From positions 1-64,000 of the forward strand of contig JAIOXN010000003.1 of assembly GCA_021741585.1 (NCBI GenBank): a stretch of DNA of 64,000 nucleotides, given 5' to 3'. Shown one piece after another: positions 1 to 17,578 of this stretch (position 1 is the first letter of the stretch; each line of letters starts with the position of its first letter). The notes beneath the pieces are model-generated. The model saw only the letters and a list, made by a program, of their open reading frames with translations, was not told the DNA's origin and did no database searches. The DNA is from Aquiluna sp. GTDB lineage: Bacteria; Actinomycetota; Actinomycetes; Actinomycetales; Microbacteriaceae. Position numbers and translations under genes: made by a program.

Positions 1-93
1 GTAGTTCGCTACACCGGAGCCGGATACGACATCGTCGCTACCATCTACATCGATGGTGTGAAGATCGAGACATTCAACCTAACCACCAAGTAA
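1..93 (+). CDS. 3' end of a secreted tail-domain protein (partial)
   Basis: Only the last 30 codons and the TAA stop lie in the window; the start is upstream of base 1. The peptide reads VVRYTGAGYDIVATIYIDG... and ends in NLTTK, matching the end of the C-terminal tail domain carried by the genes ending at 2375, 8679 and 10876. It is therefore the 3' end of another member of that family. A strong terminator follows 30 nt later. Function is unknown; by analogy with its neighbours it should be a secreted or surface protein. Confidence 0.85.
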   Translation, partial: VVRYTGAGYDIVATIYIDGVKIETFNLTTK

Positions 94-123
94 GTAACAC
101 TTACTCAAAAAGTTAGATAACCA

Positions 124-162
124 CTAACCCCCCTGGCCTCGCCAGGGGGGTTAGTCATTTTC
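124..162 (+). terminator. Rho-independent terminator of the preceding tail-domain gene
   Basis: A perfect 14-bp stem (124-137 with 141-154) closes a 3-nt loop and is followed by a T-rich stretch. The stem starts with CTAACCCC and ends with GGGGTTAG, the same outer sequence as the terminators after the genes ending at 2375 and 8679. Confidence 0.9.
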
Positions 163-431
163 TTGACTCAAAACCGAGATGTCTAGTCTTTGGTCTCCAC
201 ATTTCACTTGAGTGGATTGCGGAAACGATCCCTTGAGTTCAGGCATCGACTTCGCTTTCAGGAAGGTCTCTGGCAACGCGTCTCAAAAAGCTAATGTTGC
301 CAGTGCATGGATTGAGCCTGACCTTCTCATGCGGACATCGAAGTTGTCACAAGCCTCAACGAGCAACCTCTTCCTACAACCCCTGCATTAGACTTCGGGA
401 AACGTATTTCACAACTGCATTGGAGCTAAAA
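163..431. other. Intergenic region, no gene seen
   Basis: Between the terminator and the ATG at 432 I see no convincing coding sequence. The frame of the next gene is open back to 294, but translation upstream of 432 has no signal-peptide character and a good ribosome binding site lies just before 432. The promoter of the next gene is presumably here, but no clear -35/-10 pair stands out. Confidence 0.5.
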
Positions 432-2375
432 ATGAGCCAGACGAAGCGCTTGAAATCCTTGCTAGTAATTTTTGCAATTGCGCTAGCGCAACTGGTTGGT
501 TTGAGTTCGCCTGCCGCTGCCGCGTCCACCTGTGTTGTGGATAATTTCTCGGACGCTGCAGGTTCCGATGCTGATTCGTCTCGAACAATTAGGTTTTGCT
601 TGGGCGATGTTTCCCATTTGGGAACCATTTCCTTTAGTCACGGCGGATCGGCTCAGCTTATTGAGATTGAATCAGCTCTGTTAATTTTTTCTAAAACCAT
701 CACGATTGATGGTGATGGACTTATCACCATCAAGCGAAAGGCTAGTGCTACCGGCCAGTTCTCACTTCTAACATCCAATGCGGAACTCTATGTTGATGGA
801 ATTACTTTTCGTGATGGCGTTACGTCGGCTTCAGGAGGCGCGATCTATGCTTATGGCGCCTATGTAGGAATAGAGAATTCTGAATTTCATAACAACACAT
901 CTGGAAGTGGTGGCGGAGCAATCGTAATCGGCGCAGGGTATGTTACGAACTCTATTTTTACCGGTAATGCGGCTCTCTTCGGTGGCGCAGTCTACTCCGA
1001 GCAAGATATTCAGATATCTACCTCCACATTCACTAACAACATCGCCACTGACGGCGGTGCAGTCTTTAGCGGCGAAGATGTGGTGACACTGGAGTCTTTA
1101 TATTCCGGCAACTCTGCGACAAACAGAGGAGGCGCAATTTATGCTGTTAGCGACGTTGAGCCGACATCAACTTCCTTTATTTCAAACACTGCCCTAGATG
1201 GTGGCGCTATTTACGTGGGTTCCAATGACACCGACATAGTCGGATCGTATTTTGCATTTAATCAAGCAATTAGAGACGGTGGGGCTATTCACATCGAGGA
1301 GCACATCCACATCTCGAATTCCACCTTTTACCAAAATAGTTCTGGATACGAAGGTGCCGCCGTCTTTAATGATGACGAATCGGAAGACGCTGGTTTCATT
1401 CAGACATCAACCTTTGTGGATAATCAGTCTGGGGACGGGTTATCAGTTATTTACTGGGTTCAGGATGAGGATATGAACTTGTTCGGAAACCTTTTTCTAG
1501 GGGACCCCGGCCAGAAACAATTGGAGGAGGCCGAAGCAGACAGGATTATCGACTTTGGGTGGAATGTTTCTTCTCACCCAAACTTGATTGGCGCTGAGAG
1601 CAGCAATAATGCCGTGACACTAGCCTCAGTTGGTGCTGGTGTCCCGGAGACCGCGACATTGTCATTGCGTCCAATCGTGCCATTCTCTTCCCTAAATGTA
1701 GTTGAGGTCGAAATAGATCAGGACGCAATTGACGCTTGGCTAACCAGGACTCCACCTGATTTGACTATTGACCAACAGGGCACCACCAGGGTTGTGAGTT
1801 ATTTCCCTGGAGCGCAATATATCGCTTGGCAGCCGGCGGGTCCCTCAGCTCCTAGAGCGATTGAATTCAGGCCATACGAGGGTCCTGTAATTATGGACAT
1901 TCTCCCAAATTACGAATCCACAAATGAGGCAAAAGTGACGGGGCTCAGGATGGAAGCCATCGATCGAGTTTCGGTTAGTGGTGCAGTCTTGTCCCAAAGA
2001 CTTGATGCAGATGGAGCATTGTACTTCGACACAACTTCGTTGGCCCCGGGCTCGTATCGGATTGAGTTTTGGTCAGCAGTTTCCAGTACGACTCTCTATT
2101 CGATGGTGACCGTTAAAACAGCCACCCTTGAAACCCAATCTCAAATGGTAAACGCAGGGTCATTCAAGGGTTATGTGGCAATTTATGCCAAGGGTTATGA
2201 AGGCTCACGGTTAAGTGCCAAGGTTGGTGATGACTGGGTCATTGTCCCCATCGTCCCAGCTGCGCCAAACAACCTTTACCGTCACGTTGAGTACACAGGT
2301 GCTGGTGTTGATGTGGCAGTCCGGATCTATATCGATCGCGTTCTAATGGAAACAGTCAACCTCACAACCAAGTAA
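432..2375 (+). CDS. Secreted Pmp-like beta-helix protein with TIG-like and tail domains
   Basis: This is a 647-residue protein. The ATG at 432 is preferred over upstream in-frame codons because GGAG lies 6 nt before it and a Sec signal peptide follows (KRLKSLL, hydrophobic core, then SPAAAAS). Residues about 135-350 carry repeated coils with the GGAI/GGAV motif and F-x-x-N signatures, as in right-handed beta-helix polymorphic membrane-type proteins. About 480-565 is an IPT/TIG-like beta domain (YEGPV... VSGAVL... PGSYRIEF). The last ~75 residues are the tail domain starting VNAGSFKGYVA and ending NLTTK. It is probably a surface adhesin or envelope protein; its binding partner is unknown. No LPXTG motif or C-terminal membrane anchor is present, so the tail may serve retention or sorting, which is inference. 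Confidence 0.88.
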   Translation: MSQTKRLKSLLVIFAIALAQLVGLSSPAAAASTCVVDNFSDAAGSDADSSRTIRFCLGDVSHLGTISFSHGGSAQLIEIESALLIFSKTITIDGDGLITIKRKASATGQFSLLTSNAELYVDGITFRDGVTSASGGAIYAYGAYVGIENSEFHNNTSGSGGGAIVIGAGYVTNSIFTGNAALFGGAVYSEQDIQISTSTFTNNIATDGGAVFSGEDVVTLESLYSGNSATNRGGAIYAVSDVEPTSTSFISNTALDGGAIYVGSNDTDIVGSYFAFNQAIRDGGAIHIEEHIHISNSTFYQNSSGYEGAAVFNDDESEDAGFIQTSTFVDNQSGDGLSVIYWVQDEDMNLFGNLFLGDPGQKQLEEAEADRIIDFGWNVSSHPNLIGAESSNNAVTLASVGAGVPETATLSLRPIVPFSSLNVVEVEIDQDAIDAWLTRTPPDLTIDQQGTTRVVSYFPGAQYIAWQPAGPSAPRAIEFRPYEGPVIMDILPNYESTNEAKVTGLRMEAIDRVSVSGAVLSQRLDADGALYFDTTSLAPGSYRIEFWSAVSSTTLYSMVTVKTATLETQSQMVNAGSFKGYVAIYAKGYEGSRLSAKVGDDWVIVPIVPAAPNNLYRHVEYTGAGVDVAVRIYIDRVLMETVNLTTK

Positions 2376-2402
2376 GCAATACTAATTCAAAGTTAAGTGA
2401 CA

Positions 2403-2438
2403 TCTAACCCCCTGGCTGCGCCAGGGGGTTAGATTTTT
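2403..2438 (+). terminator. Rho-independent terminator after the beta-helix protein gene
   Basis: A perfect 14-bp stem (2403-2416 with 2420-2433) with a 3-nt TGC loop is followed by TTTTT. Its CTAACCCC/GGGGTTAG arms match those of the terminators of sister genes. Confidence 0.92.
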
Positions 2439-2650
2439 CTGGCACACTCTCGTGTGCAATAGGTTCTGGGTTGCTGGAATGGCAAAGCTAATCGGGGATG
2501 CAGTCAGGGATTCAGCCCCTGGAGCCACTAACAATTTCGAATTCTGTTTCGCTTCTGCTTCCAAGTCAAACTTGATCTCAACTCGCATATTGGTATTCAC
2601 AAAATGTGTGGTTAACCGCAATAAAAGCACTTCCGAATCAATCGCCTGAT

Positions 2651-2656
2651 TAGCCT
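2651..2656 (+). promoter_or_regulatory. -10 box for a probable leaderless transcript
   Basis: TAGCCT lies 6 nt before the ATG at 2663 and no Shine-Dalgarno sequence is present. In Actinobacteria a TANNNT box at this distance usually places the transcript start on the A of the start codon. The call is inferred from spacing alone. Confidence 0.5.
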
Positions 2657-2662
2657 TATCCC

Positions 2663-3847
2663 ATGAATAAGATTTTGAAGCGGAGCCTAACTATTGCAGT
2701 GACTCTGTCCTTGCTAGCCTCAGTTGCAGGACCAGCACTTGCCACAGCGGATTTGATCCCAGGCCCGAGCCCCGAGTTGCTTATTCAGCAGACGGTTCCG
2801 CAAGCAACTATCTCATCGACCCCGCTTGCGGTAATTGGCGTTGACTACAAGATTCCTCAATTTTTGATTGGGCTTGGGAATAGCGAAAATCCAACCGATT
2901 CGAGCGAATTTGCTCTTTGGGATACTCAGTCAAGTATTGGCGGAGGTTGCGTGACTGTAGTGACTTGTGATCCTTTCATCGAAGTTTGGTCTATGCGCAA
3001 CGGCCAAAGAGTAGATTTTTCGGTGAGCAGGTTCCAACGTTTCTCCAGTGGGCGAACAGGACTTATTCAATTTGAAAATAAAAACAGCGCTGATCCTGCC
3101 GATGCCGGTGTACTTCCCGGGGATGAGTTGAACTTCAGGATCCAGCCAGGAATCTTTACTATTCCAGACCAGCCAGTCATGGACTCGCCCTATGTTCGTT
3201 ATGACTTTGTTTATATTTCGAGCACATATGGAACAATCGGCAATAATGGCCCAATTGCCACTGAGACCGGTGGGGTTTTAGCCGACTACGTAGCGTCTCA
3301 AGTTCCTGAAAGCCCTTCAACACCCGCAATTCCAAATTACGAGGGGCCAGTAAATGTGAGGCACTCGGCAAGCAGTTTTTGCGAGGGTTCCTTGGCAACG
3401 CTTTCAGGGTTGAGGCTAGACACAATAAGTTCCGTGGAGGTTGACGGTGAAAAGGTTGCCCACGAGCTTTTTGAAGATGGAAGACTTGCCTACTCACTTT
3501 CGTCGGTGGCACCTGGGACCCACTCGGTGCGACTATCAGTCCCTAAAAATAGTCTGTTCCTAACAACCAGCGTTATAGTCAGAGCTTGTAATTCGTTGAC
3601 AAATCAAACAGCCTCAGATGCAAAGGTGAACGTGGGATCCTTCGGCGGGAAACTCGTTGTGTACGCATCTGATCTCGACGGTGCAAAAATCTCTTGGAAG
3701 GTTGCTGGTAAGTGGGGAACTGCGTTGGCTACCGGTAATCAACTCAATAGATTCGACCGCCCATTGGGCGCCTCTGGGTTGAACGTAATGGTCGAAATCT
3801 ACGTAGATGGCCAGAAGCAACTGACAAAGACCGTGCTAACCCGATAG
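2663..3847 (+). CDS. Secreted protein with TIG-like domain and divergent tail domain
   Basis: This is a 394-residue protein with a Sec signal peptide (NKILKRSL, hydrophobic core, AGPALAT). Residues about 50-215 form a module I do not recognise, with two Cys in GGGCVTVVTC and a core reminiscent of beta-sandwich domains. About 225-315 is the TIG-like domain (YEGPVNV... LSGLRLDTISSVEVDG... PGTHSVRL). The last ~75 residues align with the tail domain (VNVGSFGGKLVVYA... VEIYVDG... VLTR) but are clearly divergent from the near-identical copies next door. The start has no ribosome binding site but a -10 box at leaderless distance. It is likely exported; function is unknown. Confidence 0.85.
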   Translation: MNKILKRSLTIAVTLSLLASVAGPALATADLIPGPSPELLIQQTVPQATISSTPLAVIGVDYKIPQFLIGLGNSENPTDSSEFALWDTQSSIGGGCVTVVTCDPFIEVWSMRNGQRVDFSVSRFQRFSSGRTGLIQFENKNSADPADAGVLPGDELNFRIQPGIFTIPDQPVMDSPYVRYDFVYISSTYGTIGNNGPIATETGGVLADYVASQVPESPSTPAIPNYEGPVNVRHSASSFCEGSLATLSGLRLDTISSVEVDGEKVAHELFEDGRLAYSLSSVAPGTHSVRLSVPKNSLFLTTSVIVRACNSLTNQTASDAKVNVGSFGGKLVVYASDLDGAKISWKVAGKWGTALATGNQLNRFDRPLGASGLNVMVEIYVDGQKQLTKTVLTR

Positions 3848-4056
3848 GCACTTGCTGATTAGCAACACCGTTTTATCTTAAATTCCCTAGCTCCAGGAAG
3901 ACGAATGCCAATTCATGGAGTGACCAGTGCTGTTAATGCTTTTGGTTGCGTAGTGCTCTTTCGTCCAGGGGCTTCAGGTTTTCATGGGGGAGTTCTGCCT
4001 GTTGTTTCGTTGCAGCCATAGAAAATTTTTGAAACTGCTGAGCCTGTGCTTGCTAG

Positions 4057-4479
4057 AGCAGACCTTGCAGTCTGGCCTTTTCGACAGCGGCATGCCTACC
4101 ACTAGCGGATAATTTGGACATCAGTGAACTAACTCCAAGCTTTACGGTTGGCAGATATGCAGTCGAGTTCTTTGTTCAAGCAAACAATGTCAGGTTAGTT
4201 TCGAGCCTTGAAATAAACACATCGCAGGGTGTTCAGTCCATGGAAAAGACCGTGAATGCCGGGTCGTTCAAGGGCTACGTAGCGATCTATGCCAAAGGCC
4301 ATGAAGGCTCACGCTTGAGTGCAAAGGTTGGCGATGACTGGGTTATTGTTCCGGTGATCCCAGCTGCGCCAAACAACCTTTACCGTCACGTTGATTTCAC
4401 TGGTGTAGGTGTTGAGTGCGCAGTGCGAATCTACATCGATCGAGTGCTAATGGACACGATCTATTTGACAACAAAGTAA
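4057..4479 (+). pseudogene. 5'-truncated remnant of a tail-domain protein gene
   Basis: An open frame runs from just after a stop at 4054-4056 to TAA at 4479. The only usable start is a TTG at 4114 without a ribosome binding site, and no signal peptide is encoded. From 4114 the translation matches the last strands of the TIG-like domain (F-x-VGRYAVEFFV) and then a full tail domain (VNAGSFKGYVAIYAKG... to YLTTK) very close to that of the gene ending at 2375. The region 3860-4110 contains no recognisable signal peptide or ectodomain. It looks like an in-place decayed or partially deleted paralog that kept its tail and terminator. It could instead be a cassette available for recombination. Confidence 0.7.
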
Positions 4480-4505
4480 ATACTGTTTGAAAGATTAGAA
4501 ACCAA

Positions 4506-4538
4506 ACCAACCCCCGTTCAAACAGGACGGGGGTTGGT
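4506..4538 (+). terminator. Rho-independent terminator after the tail-domain remnant
   Basis: A 12-bp stem (4506-4517 with 4527-4538) closes a 9-nt loop and is followed by CTTT. It is preserved although the gene in front of it appears broken. Confidence 0.85.
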
Positions 4539-4617
4539 CTTTGGATTGAGTCATAACTATGGCGCTCACCTGCTGAGTTTCAACTGCAACCCCCTTCCAA
4601 ATCCCAGCCCAAGCAAA

Positions 4618-4623
4618 TAAGAT
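4618..4623 (+). promoter_or_regulatory. -10 box for a probable leaderless sigma-factor transcript
   Basis: TAAGAT lies 6 nt before the ATG at 4630, and no ribosome binding site is visible. Same architecture as at 2651, 24175, 37598 and 61130. Confidence 0.5.
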
Positions 4624-4629
4624 GTAAGA

Positions 4630-6183
4630 ATGGTGGACAACAAAAATTCTGAAGGCTTCGATCCTTCTAACGAGCGTGCGAGCCTTGCTCTACCAAAAAA
4701 CGAAGATCCGCTTGAGCTTCTATTGGATGAAGAATCAGATGAAGAGTTTGGCGAAGCGGTTCTTGTTGAGCACTTAGATGCTAACTCCCAACCATTGATT
4801 CTTAAGGACTGGACGGCACAGGACTTCGCCGATATCTATGTCAGGTTCTACCCGCATGTTTTGCGTCAGGCTAAGCGTTATCTAACCAATCACTCCCAGG
4901 CCGAAGAGATTACCCAGGATGCCTTCCTCTATTTGATGACCTCACTGCCTGAGGTTGATAGCGAAGTTGGGGTTCTGAAGCTGTTGAAATGGAAGACTCG
5001 ATTCCTAGCTTTAGATCTAATAAAGGCCAACAGCGGTGCAAGATTTGCCCCAATTGAAGATCAGCCAGAATTGTCTGTTGATGATTCAGCTTTGAGTCTG
5101 CAACTTGAGCGGGCCGACGATGCTGCGATTGTTGCCATGGCACTTGCCAAGTTAGAACCCCGTCAGAGGGAAGCACTTGTTGCAAGCCTTTACGAAGAGA
5201 AGGCAACCAGTGAGGTTGCTGCTCAGCTAGGTCTGAACGAAAATGCCACCAGGCAGCTGGTGTTTAGGGCAAAAGCTGCATTTAAAAAGGCTTTGGTTGG
5301 TGAAGCCGAAACCCAGGGGCTTACTCTCTCTGAAATCTTGTCTGTTGCAGCCAGAAAGGCGTCTAGGGATGCCGGCAAGTATGTGTCTGTTGCGTCTGCG
5401 TTCTTATTGGCTCTGGCAATATCAATTGGAGTAATACCAAACCTTGGAGATTCCGGCGAGGAGCTCATGGCGGTTGCCCCATCGACGGTTTCGCAGGGTA
5501 GTGATGAGACTTCTGCTGTCGAGACTGAAGCTCAAGCACCTGTAGCTGCAGAAGTTCAGGAAGAGCTTGAACCAGTATCGGCTGTTGAGTTGGCGGCAGA
5601 GACTTTTTCCACTGCTGAGCCTGAGCCAGATAGTGGCCTAGTTGCCAATCCCGCAATTTCCGAGAGTCCCGTTGCCCCTGACGTTGAGAGTCCATTTGGT
5701 GCTAGCGCCGAGTTGAAGCTAGCTTCATTCTCAGAGTCGATTGATTACAGCCCGTTCGACCCTTGGTTGCTGGACCCGCTGGTTGCGCAGTCCTCTATTA
5801 AAGGGTCGCTCCTATCGTCCAGCACAATTGCCAGCCCTAATGCACCGGAACTGATCACGGTGATTAGTGATGAGGGTATTTGGGCTGATGTCATCTTCCA
5901 GCCTGAGAGCCAGACCCCTTTTCAGAATGTCAGGCTTGGTATTAGCGTCGATGAAAATCAGTATTTCGCCAACGTATCGGGCATAGATTTAATAGTCGTG
6001 TCAGAGGATCCGACCCATGAAACCTATGTTCTGGTTGGTTCTATTGGGGCCATCTCAGATGTGAGTGGAAATATTTACAGGCAAACTAGGCTGGATGGTG
6101 CAACCCTTCGCCTCACCCTGACGGTGAATGTAGCGACGGGAAAAATCAGCCAAACCGGCTTTGCCCTGGCTGGCCGCAGTTAG
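4630..6183 (+). CDS. ECF-type sigma factor fused to a membrane segment and exterior domain
   Basis: This is a 517-residue protein. After an acidic N-terminus, residues about 60-130 match the sigma-70 region 2 (FYPHVLRQAKRYL, AEEITQDAFLYL, RFLALDLIKAN) and about 165-215 match region 4 (LEPRQREALVASLYEE, SEVAAQLGLNENATRQLVFRAK). A single hydrophobic segment follows at about 253-273 (VASAFLLALAISIGVI), then an Ala/Glu/Pro-rich linker and a beta-rich domain of about 150 residues that should lie outside the cell. ECF factors are normally ~180-220 residues with a separate anti-sigma factor; none is encoded next to this gene. The fusion suggests a membrane-tethered transcription factor that senses the exterior and might be released by proteolysis; this is inference. 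The neighbouring surface-protein genes are plausible targets. Confidence 0.85.
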   Translation: MVDNKNSEGFDPSNERASLALPKNEDPLELLLDEESDEEFGEAVLVEHLDANSQPLILKDWTAQDFADIYVRFYPHVLRQAKRYLTNHSQAEEITQDAFLYLMTSLPEVDSEVGVLKLLKWKTRFLALDLIKANSGARFAPIEDQPELSVDDSALSLQLERADDAAIVAMALAKLEPRQREALVASLYEEKATSEVAAQLGLNENATRQLVFRAKAAFKKALVGEAETQGLTLSEILSVAARKASRDAGKYVSVASAFLLALAISIGVIPNLGDSGEELMAVAPSTVSQGSDETSAVETEAQAPVAAEVQEELEPVSAVELAAETFSTAEPEPDSGLVANPAISESPVAPDVESPFGASAELKLASFSESIDYSPFDPWLLDPLVAQSSIKGSLLSSSTIASPNAPELITVISDEGIWADVIFQPESQTPFQNVRLGISVDENQYFANVSGIDLIVVSEDPTHETYVLVGSIGAISDVSGNIYRQTRLDGATLRLTLTVNVATGKISQTGFALAGRS

Positions 6184-6819
6184 TAATAAACCCGACAATT
6201 CTCAGGTATTGATTTGCCCTTTATGTGCATGAGCTATGCAGAGAGATCCCCTGGGCACCCAATAATCCACAAGAGGTCGACTCCTATTTCAAACCACCAG
6301 ATTGATTGATCCCTCGTCCCTTCATCGCCCCAATGGTCGCCTCTTTTGAAATCGGGTTTTCTCTTTGGGGCGGAAGCAAAATACCTTGGCGCATCAAGGC
6401 TGAAAAATTCTATGCCGCTTGCGTCGCTACGCACTATCAACAGAGGTGCTGCTTGATTTGCCGGCAGTTAGGAAAGACTGACTGTCACGTAGGACACAGT
6501 TTGTTTTCGATTTAGGGATTCTGGGCAATCGGAGCGTTGAGGCAAAATTCATCAGGGAGTAGATCTAGGCAGCGCTTTGCTTGAAAGTTTTCCCTTCTCT
6601 TGGGTCATCCACTAGATCGCAAGCCCCGCTAAGTAGTTTTGGATTAGAATTTTGACAATAGGGAGCAATTACAAAACCTCAGGTCTGAAAATTAACATTC
6701 CAAAATTGTCCGGACATACACTACGATGTACGCAGTCTGTCATTGACTACTTTAAGCGAACGAGTCCCAATGCCAGATCGATTATTTCGATTCCGGTTCG
6801 TTAATGGAGGAGCTTCAAA
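6184..6819. other. 636-nt intergenic region without a recognisable gene
   Basis: No open frame here has a plausible start, ribosome binding site and protein-like composition. The region is AT-richer near its 3' end and contains a perfect 10-bp palindrome TGTCCGGACA at 6707-6716, about 100 nt before the next start. A TTGACA (6652-6657) is present, but no convincing -10 box lies 16-18 nt downstream. It may hold a decayed paralog or a long regulatory leader. Confidence 0.4.
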
Positions 6820-8679
6820 GTGTCGTTTCTAAAGAGAATAATTGGCGTGGCCACTGTTGTTTTATTGGCTGCTGTAACAGGTTCAATGCCAGCGTATGCC
6901 AACTCAACCCCAAACCCCTACACTTCCGTGGGGACTTCTTGGATAGATGTTAACCCCTCAGAGAAAGTCTGGTTTGAGGACTTTGAGGACGGCGACCACG
7001 ACGACTCAAATATTTTCTTCGTAGAGACCGGAGTCTCCTGCACTATCAACGGAGTGACAGCAACAGGACCATTTTTGGCAGGGGATGATGCTGGCACTGC
7101 ACCTAGTGAAGACGATTGTACAAAGGATGGCAACGCCTTTGATCCAATTGACACGGATACCGGTCGTGTAGGAGCACATCCGATTGGATTTGATGTTAAC
7201 TTCTTTGGAACAACATACTCCGACCTATATTTCAATACCAATGGCGGCATCTTTTTCGACGAACCAACAGATCGTTATAACAGAAGCCTGACGGAAATGG
7301 CCGTTAGGGATCAAACTAGCGGAATCGCACCGATGATGGTGGACCTATATTTTGATTCTGACGAATCAAGTGTATGGACTGCACAAACAACACTTGGCGG
7401 CAAACAGGCCTTCATAATCTCTTGGCAAGAATTTGACGAATGCTGTGAAGATGCAACCCCTGACACAAATTCCACTAGCTTCCAATTCGTATTCATCAAT
7501 GAGGGTGAGGGTGATTTCACGGCCTACTTCAACTACGACGATGTTTACTTATCTGCAATTGGGTACTATCCAGCATCAACAGTGGACATGCGCAACGATG
7601 TGACAGTCGGTTCGAATATTGTGAGAGTCAACACGGTAGAGGGCCTCAGAGAGGGCGTCTGCGAAGCAATCTACTATTTTGACGATGAGGATAATGCTGT
7701 TTCCGGTGCTGCCAGTTTTGGCCCTGGAGATTTGACTGATTCAAGTTGGGATGACAACGCCAAGTACATGAAGCTGGTTAGTTCCAGCGATAAGACCGTT
7801 TCTGTCTGGCAGGACTCTTCATGTACTTCGCCTAATAACATCTCTGCCATACAGGACATCGAAACAGATGGCATCGAATATGTTTCCTTGAAAATCGAAA
7901 ACCTTTTCGAGGAAAACCCAACTTTTTCATTCGCAATCGGATGGGGAACATTTGACCCAACAACTGGTGCGACAGAGGTGACAGAAATATTTCCAAATGG
8001 AGATGGCCGAGATTTACTAAATGGCGGCTCGAATGAATTGATTGCTTATTCTCTGAACACCACTGTTCCCGGCCGAATTGTCCTTGGGCAAGTAAACGGT
8101 GGGACTGTCGGTGATCCCGACACTGAGGAAGAGCCATCTGCGCCAGTAATCAGGCAGGTTTCGTACTACGGACCAGTGAATTTAGTCGCAGAGACTGTGG
8201 CCAAGGCGGCTGGAACTGCAAGGGTGAAGGGCTTAAACCTAGACACCATTACAGCCATCTCGGTTGGAGGCATCAATACTGATTTCACGATTAATTCAGA
8301 CGGTTCTCTAACGTTTGACGTTCCCAACTTGGAGGACGGAATCTATGAACTTAAGTTCCTTGTCTCAAAAAGCAACTTGAATCTTGTTACACGAATCCAG
8401 GTATACGGGAAGACTTCCGAGCTGGAGACTAGCGGGAATCTAGTTCAGAAGGTAAACGCAGGTTCTTTCAAAGGCTATGTTGCTCTCTATGCCAAGGGAC
8501 ATGAGGGTAAGCGCCTGAGTGCCAAGGTTGGTAAAGATTGGGTGATTATTCCAAGCATTCCGGCTGCAGCTAACGATCTCTATCGAGTGGTTGAGTACAC
8601 AGGAGCTGGTGTTGATGTTGCTATTCGAATCTACATCGACCGTGTCCTAATCGAGACAATTAACCTAACCACCAAGTGA
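6820..8679 (+). CDS. Secreted NIDO-like protein with TIG-like and tail domains
   Basis: This is a 619-residue protein starting at GTG with GGAGG 9 nt upstream. A Sec signal peptide (SFLKRIIG, hydrophobic core, PAYANS) is followed by an acidic, Thr/Asp-rich region. Residues about 125-250 resemble a nidogen-type (NIDO) domain: IGFDVNFFG, a YFNTNGGIFF strand, then an IAPMMVDLYF strand and an FIISWQEF strand. About 440-535 is the TIG-like domain and 545-619 the tail domain (VNAGSFKGYVALYAKG, ending NLTTK). The tail DNA is nearly identical over long blocks to that of the next gene. It is probably a cell-surface adhesion-type protein; the ligand is unknown. Confidence 0.87.
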   Translation: MSFLKRIIGVATVVLLAAVTGSMPAYANSTPNPYTSVGTSWIDVNPSEKVWFEDFEDGDHDDSNIFFVETGVSCTINGVTATGPFLAGDDAGTAPSEDDCTKDGNAFDPIDTDTGRVGAHPIGFDVNFFGTTYSDLYFNTNGGIFFDEPTDRYNRSLTEMAVRDQTSGIAPMMVDLYFDSDESSVWTAQTTLGGKQAFIISWQEFDECCEDATPDTNSTSFQFVFINEGEGDFTAYFNYDDVYLSAIGYYPASTVDMRNDVTVGSNIVRVNTVEGLREGVCEAIYYFDDEDNAVSGAASFGPGDLTDSSWDDNAKYMKLVSSSDKTVSVWQDSSCTSPNNISAIQDIETDGIEYVSLKIENLFEENPTFSFAIGWGTFDPTTGATEVTEIFPNGDGRDLLNGGSNELIAYSLNTTVPGRIVLGQVNGGTVGDPDTEEEPSAPVIRQVSYYGPVNLVAETVAKAAGTARVKGLNLDTITAISVGGINTDFTINSDGSLTFDVPNLEDGIYELKFLVSKSNLNLVTRIQVYGKTSELETSGNLVQKVNAGSFKGYVALYAKGHEGKRLSAKVGKDWVIIPSIPAAANDLYRVVEYTGAGVDVAIRIYIDRVLIETINLTTK

Positions 8680-8708
8680 GTGACACTTACTTAGTAGTTC
8701 AATAGCCA

Positions 8709-8738
8709 CTAACCCCAGGCCCGTCGGCCTGGGGTTAG
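8709..8738 (+). terminator. Rho-independent terminator after the NIDO-like protein gene
   Basis: A 13-bp stem (8709-8721 with 8726-8738) with a CGTC loop is followed by TCATTT. The bases between the stop codon and the hairpin resemble those after the gene ending at 93, pointing to duplication of gene end plus terminator. Confidence 0.9.
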
Positions 8739-8845
8739 TCATTTAACGTTCTTGCTCATTCCAGCTGGTCGGGCTGCTTTGGCGAACTTAAGTGCGATTT
8801 TTCAGTACCCCCAAATGAGGGAGTATCAACCTATAGAGTTGGGTA

Positions 8846-10876
8846 ATGAGACTTTCGATTCTTAGGCTGGCATTGACGGCTAGCCTTTTTCTATCCAGCA
8901 TGTTTGTCGTTTCTCCTGCCAGCGCAAACGGCTGCGGTGCATCTTCGGGAGGCCCTTTTGATGGCGGAGACGGGCTCTCGGCATCCCCATTCTTAGTGAG
9001 TACCGCGGCACAGCTACAGTCGATCGAGACCAATGCCTGTCTTGTCACCGGGTACCACTTCAAGCTAACTTCTGACATAAGTCTTGCTGGTCTATCCTGG
9101 ACCCCTGTTGGAACAAGCTCTGAGTTTACTAACGGTAGTTTTGACGGAGACTTTCACACCATATCTGGCCTAACAGTGAGCGGGGCAAAAGCTGGATTGT
9201 TTGGAACCTTGAATGGCATGACAATCAAGAACCTGAAAATCAAGGATTCCACGGTTGCAGCGACGAGCGGGGATGCAGGAGTAGTTGCTCACACAGTCAA
9301 GGGGACTACCTCCATTACTCAGGTCGAAATTGACGGTGCCACAATTACCGCTAACAACGGATCTGCTGGGGGTATTATTCCGAGGGTCGATGCTGGGGTG
9401 ACCTTGAGCATCACCAAAGTCTCTGTAGCTGGTTCGGTGGGTGCTACTTATCACGTGGGGGGAATTGTTGGTGAAATTCGTGGGACCACTATTTCAGACG
9501 CAGTTTTCTCCGGTTCACTTCAAAGCACTTCAGGTCGGGTTGGCGGGCTGGTGGGATACGGCTCAGGCACGAACTCAATTACAAAGGGCTATTCGACTGG
9601 AACAGTTTCGGGCGGGGCTTACAGGGGTGGCACCGTCGGACAAGTGGGGAGCTCCCCATCGCCTTTTACAAGCACATATTTCTTGGCTCAGGATGGACTG
9701 AACAGCCCATCCGACGGTGTATCAAAAACCACTCTTGAGCTTCAAACCATTGGAACTTTCGCCGCTCCTTGGAGCATCACAAACGATCTTTCTGCCATGC
9801 GAGCCGCTACAGCGACTGAAACCTGGTTCATCGATCCGGATATAAACGGCGGGTTGCCGATTCTAAGCTGGCAGTATTTCAACGGGTCATTTGAATGCAG
9901 TCCAGGCAGATATTCAGTTGATGGAAATCAGCCTTGCAACGTTGCTCCGGTAGGTAAGTTTGTGGCGACGTATGGAGCCACTGTGGCGACAGATTGCCCA
10001 GCTGGAACATTCGCAGAGAACGAACAGTCGGTTGCCTGCACCCAGGCGCCAGTCGGTTACTACGTGGCGCAAGCGGGTTCCTCAGCGTCAGTGGTCTGTC
10101 CAGTTGGAAGATATCAGCCATTTGAAGGGGCAACCGCCTGCCTAGTTGCTGACCCTGGCCGATTTGTTGACGTAACGGGTGCGAGCTCCCAAATTCTCTG
10201 CCCTGTCGGAACCTACCAGCCAAACGCCGGCAGTTACGAATGCGTAATCGCTGACCCAGGCTATTTCGTGGCAAGCGTTGGAAGTGTCGTGCAAACAGTT
10301 TGTGCACCGGGTTTTGTTTCGGAGGCTCTCGCAAGCTCCTGCTATAAAGCCGCATCATCTGCAAGACCATACACAGGGCCATCAAGCATTATCGTCAGCA
10401 AGAGTGCTCCTGCAAACGGAACCGGTTTTGCAACTGGTGACAACCTAGGCAGCATCGATGCTGTCTTTGTTGGCGGGATACAAACTACATTTGAGGTGAC
10501 TGAGGAAGGAACACTAACCTTTGCGATCCCTGAGATTGTTCCTGGCAACTATGCGGTCAAGTTCTTCATATCTGAAAACTCTGTCTACTTAACCTCTTAT
10601 GTTGACATAGTCGCAGGTGTTCGAGCAGTGGCAAACGATGCCGCAAGGGTCAACGCAGGTTCCTTCAAGGGCTATGTTGCTCTCTATGCCAAGGGATATG
10701 AGGGTAAGCGCCTGAGTGCCAAGGTTGGAAAAGATTGGGTGATTATTCCAAGCATTCCGGCTGCAACCAATGATCTTTATCGAGTCGTTGAATACACAGG
10801 CGCTGGAGTTGATGTTGCGGTCAAGATTTATATTGACCGGGTTCTTCGGGAAACTGTGGATCTGACCACTCGATAG
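8846..10876 (+). CDS. Secreted GLUG and Cys-rich repeat protein with tail domain
   Basis: This is a 676-residue mosaic protein. Signal peptide: MRLSILRL, hydrophobic core, SPASANG. Residues about 60-330 contain a beta-helix-like region with GLUG-type motifs (SGLTVSGAKAGLFG, VGGIVGE, VGGLVGYGSG, KGYSTGTVSGG), a style known from adhesins and surface proteases. About 350-505 has four to five Cys-rich units (C-P-x-G-x-Y/F ... C-x2-A-x-G-Y/F-F-V) resembling the ephrin-receptor/GCC2-GCC3 type. A TIG-like domain (about 510-590) and a full tail domain (VNAGSFKGYVALYAKG to DLTTR) complete it. It is likely exported and disulfide-rich; function is not known. The ribosome binding site is weak (GGGT). Confidence 0.86.
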   Translation: MRLSILRLALTASLFLSSMFVVSPASANGCGASSGGPFDGGDGLSASPFLVSTAAQLQSIETNACLVTGYHFKLTSDISLAGLSWTPVGTSSEFTNGSFDGDFHTISGLTVSGAKAGLFGTLNGMTIKNLKIKDSTVAATSGDAGVVAHTVKGTTSITQVEIDGATITANNGSAGGIIPRVDAGVTLSITKVSVAGSVGATYHVGGIVGEIRGTTISDAVFSGSLQSTSGRVGGLVGYGSGTNSITKGYSTGTVSGGAYRGGTVGQVGSSPSPFTSTYFLAQDGLNSPSDGVSKTTLELQTIGTFAAPWSITNDLSAMRAATATETWFIDPDINGGLPILSWQYFNGSFECSPGRYSVDGNQPCNVAPVGKFVATYGATVATDCPAGTFAENEQSVACTQAPVGYYVAQAGSSASVVCPVGRYQPFEGATACLVADPGRFVDVTGASSQILCPVGTYQPNAGSYECVIADPGYFVASVGSVVQTVCAPGFVSEALASSCYKAASSARPYTGPSSIIVSKSAPANGTGFATGDNLGSIDAVFVGGIQTTFEVTEEGTLTFAIPEIVPGNYAVKFFISENSVYLTSYVDIVAGVRAVANDAARVNAGSFKGYVALYAKGYEGKRLSAKVGKDWVIIPSIPAATNDLYRVVEYTGAGVDVAVKIYIDRVLRETVDLTTR

Positions 10877-12038: not shown

Positions 12039-12998
12039 ATGGAGCACGCAACTTTGCTAAAAATTTCACGTTTCATAGCGCTGGCTGGCGTTGCCGCTAT
12101 GTTCCTTGCTGGATGCACACCGACCTCGAGTGAGCAAGAATCTGGCTCAGATCCTCTGGTGTTTGTAGGTGTCCCGGTGGATGAATCGCAAGATATTGCC
12201 GAGAGCTACCGATTGATGATGAATCTGATTTCAGAGGCAACCGGTCGCGACGTGGAGTTCTATCAGTCACAAGATTACGGAACATCCACAGAAGCTTTAA
12301 TTGCCGGCAAAGTTGATGTTTCGCTGCTGTCGGTCTTCTCATACGTGCTTGCGACGTCAAGAACTGAAAGCATTGAACTTTTGGGAACAGTTGCCCGTGA
12401 TGGCGGAGACTTGCCCGGTGCATACGCATATGGAATCAAGGGCGCCGGAGATGCTTCTATTCAAGATCTAGAGGACTTGAGAGGCAAAACGGTTTGCTAC
12501 TCAGACCCGGGTTCAGGTGTCGGATACTTCTGGCCCGCGTACTCTATGGACGAGGTTGGAATTGATTTTGATCCGGTTGAGTCAAAGGATTACAAAGCTG
12601 TTTTCGCCGGGACATTCCCTCAAGTTGCTGCAAACGTGTCCAATGGAGATTGTGACGCTGGATTTTTGCTAGATGCTATCTACGACACCGCACTACCCAA
12701 CTCGGATTTAGTGGATATGGATTCAATTGAGAAGTTCTGGACCTCGCCAGTTCTTCCTGGACTAGCTCTAGTTGTTAACTCTGATGCGATCAGTGAAGCG
12801 GATGCGGAGAAGATTAAGCAGAAGATGCTAACCCTCGGCAACAAAACAGCTTTGGTTGCAGAGGGGATTTGCGAGTCGGAGGGTGAATGCGCATTCTTAT
12901 CCAGCGCAGCCTGGGGTTTTGTTGAGTCCACGGATTCTTTTTACGATCCTCTCCGAGAGCTCTGTGGAAGACTTGAAATAGAACAATGCAGCAAATAG
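12039..12998 (+). CDS. PhnD-type substrate-binding lipoprotein of an ABC importer
   Basis: This is a 319-residue protein with a lipoprotein signal (FLAGC lipobox near residue 25). It has the PhnD/SsuA/transferrin-type fold features: VGVPVDES at the first strand, an EALIAGKVDVSLL segment, and DLRGKTVCYSDPGSGVGY after the hinge. The family binds phosphonate, phosphite or related anions and also other small ligands, so the substrate cannot be read from sequence. The C-terminal part holds several Cys (CESEGEC, LCGRLEIEQC) that may form disulfides. The matching ATPase and permease genes are not adjacent but lie at 17571-19881, with ligase genes in between. It ends 10 nt before the first ligase start. 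Confidence 0.85.
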   Translation: MEHATLLKISRFIALAGVAAMFLAGCTPTSSEQESGSDPLVFVGVPVDESQDIAESYRLMMNLISEATGRDVEFYQSQDYGTSTEALIAGKVDVSLLSVFSYVLATSRTESIELLGTVARDGGDLPGAYAYGIKGAGDASIQDLEDLRGKTVCYSDPGSGVGYFWPAYSMDEVGIDFDPVESKDYKAVFAGTFPQVAANVSNGDCDAGFLLDAIYDTALPNSDLVDMDSIEKFWTSPVLPGLALVVNSDAISEADAEKIKQKMLTLGNKTALVAEGICESEGECAFLSSAAWGFVESTDSFYDPLRELCGRLEIEQCSK

Positions 12999-13008
12999 GT
13001 GACCTCAA

Positions 13009-14448
13009 TTGGCTATAGCCCAAGGTCCTAGGGGGCTCTTTGGAATCTTGGAGCGAGCCTGCCAGGTATCTCCAGACTCTAAGGCCTTGGTCAGCGCCAG
13101 GATGACCTTCAGCTATCAGGAACTTCTAAATTCCAGCATCATTTTTGCGAAGTTCTTGAGGGGACTGGGCCTAACAAAAGGAGATCGCTTTTGGGCAGCG
13201 TTGCCTGCGGAGCTGAGCGTCATAATGAACTTTGCTGCCGCCCACGAGGGCTTAGTCATGGTTCCACATGTCCCCAGTTACAAAAACCCTGAAAGGTTGG
13301 GCTGCAAGCGGCTTATTACTCAGCAGGTAATGGATGTATTTTACCCCATTGAACCAACGGCAATGACGCAAGAGCGGCTGGCAGAACTAGCCTCAGATGG
13401 GGAAGTTCTAGATTTCAGAGGTGATGATTCTGGGGATGAAATCTACCGCGCCTTCTTCACAAGTGGTACCACTGGAACTCCAAAGCCTGTTGCGTTGAGC
13501 TTGAACCAGCTAATAAGGCGTTCTCAGAACTTGCGAGAAATAGCTGGCATAGGACCAAAGCATTTGACTCTGCTCAGTCCGGATATTCAGCTTGGATCCC
13601 ACACAATGCTCTCAAATGTTATCCACGGAGAGACTTTCTTTCAGGCGCAAGCCGGCGTTGATGGCGCTACCTTGATCAGTAATTTCCAGATTGAGTCGTT
13701 GCTCACCTCGCCTGCAACACTTGCAGAACTACTGAGCACTGAAAAAGGTCGAGCCTCTCTAAAAAATCTTTCAAGGATTCAATTGACGGGGAGCATGCTA
13801 ACCAAAGAGCAGTTGGTGGCCCTGCGTAAGGAATTCGACGGTGAACTAGAAGTTCAATTCGGATCGGCAGAGTCTGGTGCCGTTGCAGTGCAAAAGGTAG
13901 GCAGAACGGTTTCCAAATCTTTGGGTCAAGTTTGCAGCTGGGCTGAAATCCAAGTGGTCGATGATCAGGCGCTTGAGTTGACTGATGGCGAGATTGGCCA
14001 CATCAGGATTAAGAGTCGGGACATCGTTCAGAACTATTTTGATGATCAATCAGATTCCCCTTTGAAAGACGGTTGGTTTTATGGTGGCGATCTAGGGCTC
14101 GTCACATCCAATGGAGAAATCTTCATCACTGGTAGATCTAGCGAAAGGATAAACGTCGGCGGGGTAAAACTCTCGCCCGAAGATGTTGAGAGTCTTATCA
14201 GGGAGCACTACCCATTCGATGATCTGGCGGTGTTTGGAACCAAAGATAAGCAGGGAGTTCCAGTGGTTGGCTTGGCCTTTGTCGCTTCGCAGAAGCCAGA
14301 CGTTGAATCACTTCACAGAAAACTTCGCCAGGAGCTTGGCGCCAGGGCACCAACGGCCATTTTCCGGGTTCACAAGATCCCTAGAAATGAACTTGGGAAG
14401 GTTATGCGGCTTGAATTGACTCAAGCGTTTGAAAAGAGCATAAGTTAG
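13009..14448 (+). CDS. Adenylate-forming ligase 1 (ANL superfamily)
   Basis: This is a 479-residue protein starting at TTG with AGGTGA 6 nt upstream. Class I adenylation motifs are intact: FFTSGTTGTPKP (A3), GSAESG (A5), YGGDLG (A7), ITGRSSERINVGGVKLSP (A8) and the catalytic Lys in RNELGKVMR (A10). Such enzymes activate carboxylates as acyl-adenylates and pass them to CoA, a carrier protein or an amine; no carrier-protein gene is nearby. It is closely linked to the binding-protein gene (10 nt), and two paralogs lie further down the cluster. The substrate is unknown, and it is shorter than typical long-chain acyl-CoA synthetases. Confidence 0.85.
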   Translation: MAIAQGPRGLFGILERACQVSPDSKALVSARMTFSYQELLNSSIIFAKFLRGLGLTKGDRFWAALPAELSVIMNFAAAHEGLVMVPHVPSYKNPERLGCKRLITQQVMDVFYPIEPTAMTQERLAELASDGEVLDFRGDDSGDEIYRAFFTSGTTGTPKPVALSLNQLIRRSQNLREIAGIGPKHLTLLSPDIQLGSHTMLSNVIHGETFFQAQAGVDGATLISNFQIESLLTSPATLAELLSTEKGRASLKNLSRIQLTGSMLTKEQLVALRKEFDGELEVQFGSAESGAVAVQKVGRTVSKSLGQVCSWAEIQVVDDQALELTDGEIGHIRIKSRDIVQNYFDDQSDSPLKDGWFYGGDLGLVTSNGEIFITGRSSERINVGGVKLSPEDVESLIREHYPFDDLAVFGTKDKQGVPVVGLAFVASQKPDVESLHRKLRQELGARAPTAIFRVHKIPRNELGKVMRLELTQAFEKSIS

Positions 14449-14561: not shown

Positions 14562-16058
14562 TTGTCGAAGCATGCAAAGAAAACATCCTTTTCCACCAAG
14601 GTGACTGCTGGTCTGGGCATCTCAACATTGGCGTTGGCCCCAGTTGTTGCAAACTCCTCCATAAGTCAGGCAGCTGACTGTGATTCGGCCCTTACTTTTT
14701 CCAGCCTGTCTAATGCGACCAAGACCACCACTGCTCTTTCAGGGGGGCTTTGTGAGGTAAAAATTGAGGCCGAAAACGCAAATGATGCGTACGGCGCGGG
14801 ATTCGATTTTGAGCTCAATGCTGAAGTTCAAAAAATCGGAATATTGCTTGTTGGCACGGGGGCAAATGCAGACGCGGGTGGGGCCACATATACTTCTGGA
14901 CACGGCGGGCAATTGGTTTATTCGGAAGCCGCAAACACCTTCACGGTTGGCACTAGTTATTCCGGGTACTTCGGCTTGGGTGGAGAGGAGGCATTCGTTA
15001 AAGAATCAGATGCTTCCGAGTTTTTGCTCAGCACTGGAGTCGCAAATTCCGCACCTTACCATTACAGCATCGATCAAAGTACCAACGAGCCCGAGATCCC
15101 CTCGTATCCGCGTAGCGTAGAGTTTCTCGGCGGCGCCATAGCCCTCTCAGCAGGAACAGGATCGACAGCGCCATCGGACCAAACAGGGTTTCCATATTCA
15201 GGTGGCTCAGGAATCTCAATGGCTGAATTGGTAACAAATGATCAGGCAGATGAAAGTTTGTGGCCATCAGGCGGCACTACTGCTATCGAATTTGGTGCGG
15301 GTGGTTCGATTATTAACTCCGGCACAATTCCAAGCGACCTACCCGCAGGAACTGGTGGTTGGGTGAGATATTTCGACGATGTCAACGACAACATATCTGC
15401 ATCTGGCACTCCAGGAACCATCATCTTCAGGTTCTTGCTAGCCGGTAGCGACCCTGTGGCTGTTAGGCAGGTGACCTACGAGGGCCCAATCAACCTAGTA
15501 ACCCAAGTAAAGGCTCCGGTAAATAACTTTGCAGTAGCAACCGGAAAGAGACTCGACACCATCACCAGAGTGAGGGTCGGTGGAGTTGAAGTTCCATTCG
15601 AGCTATTGCCAGATGGCAAGCTCAAGTTCAACACTCCAGATTTGCAGCCTGGAACATACCAAGTCAGATATGAGGTTGGAGGAACTCTAACCCTCACCGG
15701 TTCGATCGCTTTGACAGAGAACAAGCTGGTTTCACCAAGCGAATCCTCATATCTAGTTTCTAAGTTGTTTGCTAACTTCGGTGGTGACTTGTTTGGTGTG
15801 ACGAGTGCGGATTCCAGTGCTATTAAGAATTTCATCCAGGATTATGACGGCATCACAAACATCACCTGTGTTGGAAGCACTTCAGGAGTCCCAGCAGTTG
15901 CTACCGACGAAGCTTTAGCAAAGGCCCGAGCACAGAACTCTTGTGACCTGGTCGAGTCTTTAGTTCCAGGAGCAAAGGTTAAGGTGTTGACTTCAACCGG
16001 TAAGGGCATTGGCCAAAATTACCGCAGTGTGAGGATCTTCATCAGGGGAAATAACTAA
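14562..16058 (+). CDS. Secreted protein with TIG-like and C-terminal OmpA-like domains
   Basis: This is a 498-residue protein, TTG start with GAGGATT upstream, and a signal peptide whose hydrophobic stretch (ISTLALAPVVA) follows a Lys-rich start. Residues about 40-300 are a module I do not recognise, rich in Gly/Ser/Ala. About 305-390 is the TIG-like domain (YEGPINLV... LDTITRVRVGG... PGTYQVRY). The C-terminus (about 400-498) resembles an OmpA-type peptidoglycan-binding domain: ITCVGSTSG, then AKARAQNSCDLV and RSVRIFIRG. It has this domain where the upstream family has the tail domain, suggesting alternative surface-retention modules. It sits between two ligase genes, 113 and 59 nt from them. 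Confidence 0.82.
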   Translation: MSKHAKKTSFSTKVTAGLGISTLALAPVVANSSISQAADCDSALTFSSLSNATKTTTALSGGLCEVKIEAENANDAYGAGFDFELNAEVQKIGILLVGTGANADAGGATYTSGHGGQLVYSEAANTFTVGTSYSGYFGLGGEEAFVKESDASEFLLSTGVANSAPYHYSIDQSTNEPEIPSYPRSVEFLGGAIALSAGTGSTAPSDQTGFPYSGGSGISMAELVTNDQADESLWPSGGTTAIEFGAGGSIINSGTIPSDLPAGTGGWVRYFDDVNDNISASGTPGTIIFRFLLAGSDPVAVRQVTYEGPINLVTQVKAPVNNFAVATGKRLDTITRVRVGGVEVPFELLPDGKLKFNTPDLQPGTYQVRYEVGGTLTLTGSIALTENKLVSPSESSYLVSKLFANFGGDLFGVTSADSSAIKNFIQDYDGITNITCVGSTSGVPAVATDEALAKARAQNSCDLVESLVPGAKVKVLTSTGKGIGQNYRSVRIFIRGNN

Positions 16059-16117
16059 TCGCTGTTATCTAGTTCCTCCTGGGAATAGCTGGAAAACCTA
16101 GTTAGGGGAGGTTGGCA

Positions 16118-17578
16118 ATGGCAATCTCTTTTAGACGCATCGAAGAGTCAGTATTTAGCTCTCTGGCTAGTTGGGCCAGAAGGCAACCGAACGCAAAATG
16201 CTTGTCTCTACCCGAAGGTGACTTCGCATACGAGCAGGTGCACCAGGATGTGGTCAAACTTGCATCTCGCTTGGCTTCTAGGGGAGTTGGACAAGGTCAA
16301 TACCTCGCTGTTGAGGGTGACAGATATTTTCAAATTATTGGTGCCCTTGCCATAGGTGCACTCGGTGCTGCCAGCGCCACGCTCCCTGGTGATTTGGATT
16401 CAAAGCTCATTGTCCAAAGGCACTTTGACTATGTGCTAGCGGAGTCCGCAGCGCCGGTTCTGGCGAAAATTCGACACATCCAAGTCGATCTCCAAGGCTT
16501 GGAGTCAGGCAACAAAGGTTCCGAGATAGTCGAGTTAGCAAAAACAGATCTTGGTCTTCCATATCGAGTTTCATTCACGAGCGGATCCACGGGGAAACCA
16601 AAGGCGCTGGTCGGCTCGCAGCGTGATGTGCTAATTAGAGGGAAGTTGGCCGGGGGAAACACCAAAAACCATGTGACTTTGAGCTTCTTCCCGCTCCAAA
16701 GCTCGTTGGGCCTTTACCGGGTTTCAGACGCAATTTCCTCTGGTGGGACCTATCTGAGCATCGGTAATTTGGACTTCACCTTCAATCAAATTGAGAAGTG
16801 GGGAGTCACGGCTCTCACCCTCTCACCAGTTTCCCTAAGAAGATTCATTGAAGATTGCCAATCGAGAGGCAAGCGGTTGCAACAAATTGAGCTAATCCAT
16901 ACCACGGGAGCACCTCTTGAAGTCAGTCTCGAAAGGAAAGCCGCAGAGTTTTTTCAATGTGATGTTCAAACCGTTTATGGGTCTGTTGAAGTTGGGCGGG
17001 TTGCGATTTCAAGCACGGCCAGGGTTTCTTTAGAGGATCAAGGTCCAGTACTGAAGGGAATGACTGTCGAGATCGTTGACGATCATGGGAATCCGGTGAG
17101 GCGCGGTGAGCCTGGTTTCGTAAGACTTAAGAGTCCGACCATGGCAGACGGATATCTGTTTACTGAGGATCAAGACCAATCTTCGTTTCGAGACGGATTT
17201 TTCTATCCTGGCGATAAGGGTTTGATAGCACTGGATGGAAGGTTAGAAGTTTTTGGGAGAACGGATGAGGTTGCAAATCTAGGTGGCGTGAAAATAAACC
17301 TTTCTGAAGTGGAGGAATATTGCAGAAAAGTTCTTGATTTGATCGAGTGTTGTGCATTCACCTGGAACGATCACAATGAGGAATTGCAGCTTGGGCTTGC
17401 CTACACAAACCCAAATGGTCTTGATGCTGAGAGTGTTTCAAGCACGCTCATGATGGGTTTTGCCTCGTTAGCCCCGTCCACGTATTTGGAATTAGAAAGA
17501 CTCCCGTTGACGTCAAACGGGAAACCCGATCGACAAGAATTAAGACGTATGGCTCAAGCCCAAACAGGTAATGTTTAG
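16118..17578 (+). CDS. Adenylate-forming ligase 2 (ANL superfamily)
   Basis: This is a 486-residue protein. The ATG at 16118 is chosen over the TTG at 16112 because the strong AGGGGAGG lies 6 nt before it. Motifs: VSFTSGSTGKPKAL (A3), YGSVEVG (A5), YPGDKG (A7), VFGRTDEVANLGGVKINL (A8), LTSNGKPDR with the A10 Lys. It should activate a carboxylate with ATP, as ligase 1. Its 3' end overlaps the ABC ATPase gene by 8 nt, implying translational coupling of a ligase with the importer. Substrate unknown. Confidence 0.85.
   Translation: MAISFRRIEESVFSSLASWARRQPNAKCLSLPEGDFAYEQVHQDVVKLASRLASRGVGQGQYLAVEGDRYFQIIGALAIGALGAASATLPGDLDSKLIVQRHFDYVLAESAAPVLAKIRHIQVDLQGLESGNKGSEIVELAKTDLGLPYRVSFTSGSTGKPKALVGSQRDVLIRGKLAGGNTKNHVTLSFFPLQSSLGLYRVSDAISSGGTYLSIGNLDFTFNQIEKWGVTALTLSPVSLRRFIEDCQSRGKRLQQIELIHTTGAPLEVSLERKAAEFFQCDVQTVYGSVEVGRVAISSTARVSLEDQGPVLKGMTVEIVDDHGNPVRRGEPGFVRLKSPTMADGYLFTEDQDQSSFRDGFFYPGDKGLIALDGRLEVFGRTDEVANLGGVKINLSEVEEYCRKVLDLIECCAFTWNDHNEELQLGLAYTNPNGLDAESVSSTLMMGFASLAPSTYLELERLPLTSNGKPDRQELRRMAQAQTGNV

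Follow-up and report, generated by a model that had tools for sequence, protein, structure and literature searches.

In LPXTG/sortase anchoring a constant C-terminus follows variable ectodomains, and in the type IX secretion system (T9SS), which is known from Bacteroidota, unrelated exported proteins end in an immunoglobulin (Ig)-like sandwich domain. Other surface proteins are attached non-covalently. In the available portions of the sources, the C-terminal domain of Lactobacillus SlpA is described as positively charged and as binding teichoic acids (PMC11181022), and as a non-covalent attachment domain common to surface-layer (S-layer) and other extracellular proteins (PMC4702614); SLH and CWB2 domains are described as binding wall polymers non-covalently, SLH binding requiring pyruvylation by CsaB (PMC5817068). 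Here we analyse a stretch of 64,000 nucleotides from Aquiluna sp., hereafter the window, which runs from the first base of contig JAIOXN010000003.1 (C3) and starts inside a copy of a C-terminal domain of about 75 residues, hereafter the tail. We propose, with confidence only slightly better than even, that the tail may be a non-covalent cell-envelope retention domain binding an anionic wall glycopolymer, SlpA-like in its working and unrelated to SlpA in sequence.

The tail resembles the SlpA domain in being C-terminal, positively charged and carried by S-layer-like and other extracellular proteins. It differs in having one predicted fn3-like sandwich instead of two SlpA motifs, in showing no sequence match to SlpA, and in its host, a planktonic actinobacterium rather than Lactobacillus. 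SLH and CWB2, found on S-layer and other wall proteins, are close to the role proposed for the tail, but they usually come in threes and share no tail sequence match, and the tail does not regularly go together with a pyruvyl transferase. The T9SS domains are C-terminal sandwiches of similar size on unrelated exported proteins, which the tail may resemble in its predicted fold; however, the tails have no T9SS-type NCBIfam match, no search for T9SS machinery itself being made. In the accessible text of the open-access literature we found no description of the domain, or of surface protein attachment in the Luna group.

Position, carriers and charge of the tail

Six gene ends within positions 1-10876, with stops at 93, 2375, 3847, 4479, 8679 and 10876, were originally predicted to share the tail, and all of them do, as five full copies and one cut-off copy. 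The four close copies (stops 2375, 4479, 8679 and 10876) are 75 residues long and 75-87% alike. The tail at stop 3847 has diverged (38% to the first tail), and that at stop 93 is reduced to its last 30 residues by the start of the contig, base 1 of C3 being also base 1 of the window. In a whole-genome profile scan contig C1 also ends within a tail, so the tail repeat itself probably broke the assembly.

The position of the tail was scanned in 59 stretches of DNA, all but those of the own genome chosen for holding tails, using a local profile without bias toward ends. Among 77 hits, 74 lay in frames closed by a stop codon. The match reached the last residue in 65 of these and ended 1 residue short in five (one being a 19-residue fragment with an early stop, L143), 2 short in one, 17 short in two that still end ..RTR, and 39 short in one, a broken fragment of 71 residues (L137) that is the only mid-protein occurrence. 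No closed frame among the 74 carried a second tail, and 68 of them end in a basic residue (K in 38, R in 30). A rescan of 26 Rhodoluna-group loci, taken from matches of a profile (A7) that includes diverged tails, gave a hit in 22 and none in 4; the match ended at most 2 residues from the stop in 15 of the 22 frames and 4-23 residues short in the other 7, in which the domain continues to the end by eye.

Carriers are mostly equipped for export. By a crude rule, 50 of 55 complete carrier frames of at least 180 residues have a signal-peptide-like start; the same rule passes 154 of 440 other frames, 76 of these without a further hydrophobic stretch. A crude hydrophobicity rule finds such a further stretch in 6 of the 55 carriers, and one of the five carriers lacking a signal start (L016 2866-7590) probably represents the latter portion of a gene that has been split. 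The bodies are unrelated, as had been noted for the N-terminal modules of the window: Pfam domains include S8 subtilase, BspA leucine-rich repeats (LRR), GLUG, Listeria-Bacteroides repeats, fn3, NIDO, ice-binding and ubiquitin. In one subtilase cluster all 16 members, from 16 of the genomes whose loci were examined, bear the tail. Eleven of the 77 frames, from 8 genomes, are large carriers of 829-1132 residues (two cut by a contig end) with a common N-terminus of the type M.KN.TRKGLA. In ten large carriers that were measured, A+G+S+T+V make up 55-66%, the isoelectric point (pI) of the body is 4.05-5.3, and Cys is absent from nine and occurs twice in one. By analogy of size, composition and position, these large carriers appear to be S-layer-like.

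L105:4863-7061 ends in the tail and contains an ice-binding domain (PF11999, E 2.9e-35). L096:4950-6002, from genome G002, is a carrier of 351 residues with a signal-peptide-like start. It also contains a ubiquitin domain (PF00240, E 9e-29), whose alignment with eukaryotic ubiquitin spans 73 residues and needs no gaps; this part looks like a gene piece acquired from a eukaryote. A literature search joining the two terms of this topic returned one unrelated paper only.

Charge was measured on 53 of the 77 frames, namely those closed, at least 300 residues long and matched from near the start to at most 2 residues from the end. All 53 tails have a pI above 8, with a mean net charge of +5.7. Non-overlapping internal 76-residue windows of the same proteins (n = 397) have a mean of -2.5, 18% of them being above pI 8; the C-termini of other proteins of the loci (n = 445) have a mean of 0.06, with 45% above pI 8. 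In a wider set, 66 of 68 tails have a pI above 8, and a pI below 5 was found for 45 of 62 bodies. The Rhodoluna-group tails (n = 22) carry net charges of +3 to +17, the diverged ones at only about 20-35% identity. The strong positive charge on mostly acidic bodies, together with the S-layer-like carriers, fits the wall-retention role that had been suggested for the tail.

Fold, family and spread

A profile (A3) was built from 36 of 37 non-redundant tails, which represent 56 distinct ones; L030, with an insertion near its end, was excluded. When these 36 diverse tails were compared with Pfam-A and NCBIfam, no model reached its cut-off; a hit on a known domain of established function, which would have spoken against the original prediction, was thus not obtained. 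At E up to 1, Pfam-A listed 19 families, none of them SLH, CWB2 or SlpA, and NCBIfam five families (E 0.027-0.089), none of T9SS type, a type for which NCBIfam holds models. One of the five, choice_anch_E, matched 1 of the 36 tails below cut-off (E 0.027). Similarity to CBM_6 is weak, being seen in 4 of the 36 tails with a best E of 2e-4 and 22.1 bits against a cut-off of 28.9. Solved structures searched with a profile returned three matches, all at E 0.3 or higher.

The structure prediction of the tail alone gave a mean predicted local distance difference test score (pLDDT) of 95.1 and a predicted template modelling score (pTM) of 0.82. On this model the tail is an fn3/Ig-like sandwich of seven strands. 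Its best structural match is a SusE-like protein (Z 8.3, root-mean-square deviation (rmsd) 1.9 over 70 residues), with many fn3 domains just below at Z about 7-8; RemA-CTD (8gl6_D; Z 7.2, rmsd 2.5, 68 residues) is tied with many generic fn3 domains. An S-layer protein fragment was among the matches of a first model comprising the tail and the TIG-like domain before it. The fold was rejected as a clue to function, both models having returned only generic fn3/Ig rows for the tail. No membrane helix was seen in the tails by reading, no separate computation being made.

In the own genome (1.39 Mb) a profile of the tails matches 10 places, with E from 9.9e-46 to 1.2e-10: C3 holds six, the last 17 kb of C1 another three, and a subtilase 0.3 Mb away on C1 the tenth. 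Should the two contigs be adjacent at these ends, nine of the places would belong to a single cluster. The tail occurs in 19 of 22 Aquiluna genomes, including all 13 that are at least 90% complete, and a narrower profile (A2) detects it in 10 of the 299 genomes scanned in the family, and in 3 of the 85 genera. Draws of 394 genomes from the class (A3, A7) and 396 from the phylum (A3) matched in the own genome only; how well other freshwater orders were represented in them is not apparent, and the result therefore does not imply that those orders lack the tail. Among 119 relatives of genome G303, A3 matches 4 and A7 matches 19, all in one genus, probably Rhodoluna, where diverged basic tails occur. 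The tail appears to form a new domain family, found in few of the groups of genomes that were searched, and probably serves a known kind of task.

The locus, its neighbours and the apparent copying of gene ends

The features of the window that bear on the tail are the following.

1-93, + strand: cut tail, last 30 residues and stop (profile match at the start of contig C3); probably completes the S-layer-like gene that is interrupted where contig C1 stops
294-2375, + strand: gene B, with signal peptide, polymorphic-outer-membrane-protein repeats, TIG-like region and tail; start likely at 432 by our own reading
2148-2372, + strand: tail of B (profile E 9.9e-46)
2663-3847, + strand: gene C, with signal peptide, unknown body, TIG-like region (by alignment) and diverged tail
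3626-3844, + strand: tail of C (profile E 2.4e-33)
4114-4479, + strand: gene D, a truncated remnant with the end of a TIG-like domain and tail, without signal peptide
4252-4476, + strand: tail of D (profile E 4.4e-44)
4630-6183, + strand: sigma factor of extracytoplasmic function (ECF) type, followed by a hydrophobic stretch and then by a part that looks extracytoplasmic by eye
6820-8679, + strand: gene E, with signal peptide, NIDO, TIG-like domain and tail
8140-8409, + strand: TIG-like domain of E (residues 1-90 of the first structure model)
8452-8676, + strand: tail of E, predicted seven-strand fn3-like sandwich (profile match, structure model)
8846-10876, + strand: gene F, with signal peptide, Cys-rich (Ephrin_rec_like) repeat body, TIG-like domain and tail
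10649-10873, + strand: tail of F (profile E 2.1e-44)
14562-16058, + strand: secreted protein with TIG domain (above the Pfam cut-off) and an OmpA-like C-terminus (by eye) replacing the tail

For the view that the tails usually stand behind an IPT/TIG-like domain the evidence is mixed. PF01833 scores above its cut-off in 14562-16058 (21.6 bits) and in the relative L092 (52.4 bits), and the predicted fold of the E domain matches a domain of SGBP-B (Z 10.6, rmsd 2.1, 80 residues); in genes E and F, however, the sequence match stays below the cut-off (17.1 and 15.8 bits vs 20.9), and a Pfam scan found none in genes B and C. The domain that precedes the tail in several carriers appears to be TIG-like.

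A TIG-like domain followed by a basic C-terminus that is OmpA-like by eye was also observed at 14562-16058 of the window and at L016 9067-10911 and 12699-14696. The three OmpA-like C-termini, all of the own genome, have a pI of 8.7, 9.6 and 11.5; that of 14562-16058 has no Pfam match, its motifs being recognized by eye. This pattern suggests that the tail and the OmpA-like C-terminus are two exchangeable end pieces. Some of these genes alternate with AMP-binding ligase-like genes, five of which lie among the secreted proteins (window 13009-14448, 16112-17578 and 19921-21363; L016 7668-9137 and 11044-12498); the one tested is PF00501 and the others were recognized by eye. Genes resembling a phosphonate-type ABC transporter (substrate-binding protein, ATPase and permease, by eye) also lie in the surface-protein cluster, at 12039-12998 and 17571-19881.

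Silent codon differences outnumber amino-acid ones in all six pairs of the four similar window tails (of 76 codons, 31 and 13 for B/E, 27 and 11 for B/D, 41 and 20 for D/F), an excess that points to purifying selection. The tail of the truncated gene D, too, differs from the others mainly by silent changes. Elsewhere the end piece seems to have been copied. In two tandem large genes of the complete Rhodoluna-group genome G031, the last 71 codons, stop included, are identical (0 of 213 bases differ), while the six preceding 60-codon blocks differ almost everywhere in an ungapped comparison. A tandem pair in G112 keeps 63 of 76 codons, and one in G173 only 33 of 76. For the G031 and G112 pairs the simple reading would be that the end piece was copied recently or underwent gene conversion. 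In the window, hairpin-forming stretches behind four tail stops are alike by reading (100-165, 2400-2435, 4500-4540 and 8705-8740) and look as if gene ends had been copied together with their terminators.

Genes co-occurring with the tail were found in Aquiluna, a link not seen in Rhodoluna. The tail subtilase adjoins galU in 15 of 16 loci and lies about 1.5 kb from a PF04230 polysaccharide pyruvyl transferase in 13 of 16; two glycosyltransferases also stand beside it. PF04230 is present in 19 of the 22 genus genomes. In genome G001 the next 15 kb or so also contain a UDP-glucose dehydrogenase, an ECF sigma factor and two large tail carriers. The sugar genes could make an acidic polymer that would suit a basic tail, although in the Rhodoluna group the pyruvyl-transferase operon is found in other genomes than the tail, and four loci that were read there hold this operon without the tail subtilase. 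The operon was considered as an obligate partner, in the manner of SLH and CsaB, in Aquiluna, and was rejected on the Rhodoluna evidence.

The sigma factor at 4630-6183 is likely the regulator of the locus. It has orthologues in loci of 9 other genomes, and in 6 of the 10 genomes it is followed at 2.6-3.3 kb by a tail stop, the spacing that a large carrier immediately downstream would produce; by reading, a similar gene lies beside the G031 tandem pair. With its hydrophobic stretch and further domain it may sense the envelope.

Retention, sorting or assembly

Computed C-terminal restriction, secretion signals, predicted fold, charge, conservation and carrier range can be accommodated as follows. 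A carrier would be exported through its N-terminal signal peptide. Its basic fn3-like C-terminal domain would then bind an anionic wall glycopolymer non-covalently and keep the carrier on the cell, the mostly acidic body being left to face outward. The large S-layer-like proteins would probably be the primary users of the tail, and subtilases, beta-helix, NIDO, LRR and other adhesin-like proteins would have acquired the same end piece and would use the same anchoring site.

Several observations weigh against this reading. A net charge of +4 or more is also found in 25% of the 445 other C-termini, and the wider set of 68 includes two tails that do not exceed pI 8, with a minimum of 4.4. Six of the 22 Rhodoluna-group frames have a body that is itself basic (pI 9.1-9.6, proteins of about 240-260 residues). 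Since the tails are homologous, their shared charge is partly inheritance, and treating them as independent overstates the evidence. It is this lack of independence and the six basic bodies that keep our confidence in wall retention close to even. Moreover, fn3-like sandwiches are common, and Z values of 7-8 may mean only a shared arrangement. Of the 119 relatives of G303, 13 have a strong pyruvyl-transferase orthologue and 19 are tail-positive, with an overlap of 0. The term S-layer is not found in the accessible parts of two Luna-group papers (PMC12422013, PMC4156110).

The comparison with T9SS and LPXTG substrates, drawn in the original prediction, implies instead that the tail would be a sorting signal recognized by an undescribed enzyme or secretion step devoted to it, which would remove the tail and attach the body covalently in its stead. 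The C-terminal position, the K or R at the last residue and a folded sandwich of the size of T9SS C-terminal domains, with RemA-CTD among the fold matches though tied with fn3 domains, are all compatible with this. We nevertheless regard it as unlikely, and it finds no support so far: as had been noted for the window, none of the 77 tail frames has an LPXTG-like motif in its last 60 residues, no sortase (PF04203) match was found in the own genome (G000) nor in 10 of the 13 near-complete Aquiluna genomes (a match is present in 6 of the 22 genomes of the genus, three of these being near-complete), the NCBIfam search gave no T9SS-type match, the tails show no membrane helix by reading, and the sole partner candidate pursued is not associated with tails in Rhodoluna. 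In its fullest form the idea would make the tail the mark of a whole undescribed sorting or attachment system of monoderm planktonic Actinobacteria, with a processing or transfer enzyme of its own, displaying S-layer-like proteins, proteases, ice-binding and even ubiquitin-bearing proteins; this we consider improbable.

The frequent tandem arrangement of the large S-layer-like carriers opens another explanation, in which the tail would serve assembly, its protein-protein contacts building an S-layer-like coat or docking accessory proteins without touching the wall polymer directly. The S-layer fragment among the matches of the first model agrees with it, as do the tails that are near-identical in codons behind unlike stretches in two of the three tandem pairs, the third keeping 33 of 76. 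The strong positive charge, however, suggests a polyanion as ligand, and the tail is terminal and never repeated within a frame; we give this explanation somewhat less credence than a sorting signal. The same near-identical tails in some tandem paralogues, taken with the generic fold, would suit a stabilising cap or generic Ig-like module that anchors nothing and was spread by duplication or recombination at repeated gene ends. Such a module would hardly be expected to occur internally in only one broken fragment among 74 frames and never to be repeated, to sit on unrelated bodies in 19 of 22 genus genomes, or to keep its basic charge at low identity, and we rank it lower still, as low as the dedicated system.

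If the tail does retain proteins on the wall, it would concern organisms of some weight in fresh waters: in the available part of the source, the freshwater actinobacterial clades typified by Rhodoluna lacicola are described as ubiquitous and abundant, and R. lacicola itself as naturally transformable and amenable to gene replacement (PMC11577799). A domain by whose sequence alone surface proteins can be recognized would allow those of the Luna group to be listed and would point to a possible S-layer-like coat in this group. In a naturally transformable relative, the tail could be used as a display tag.

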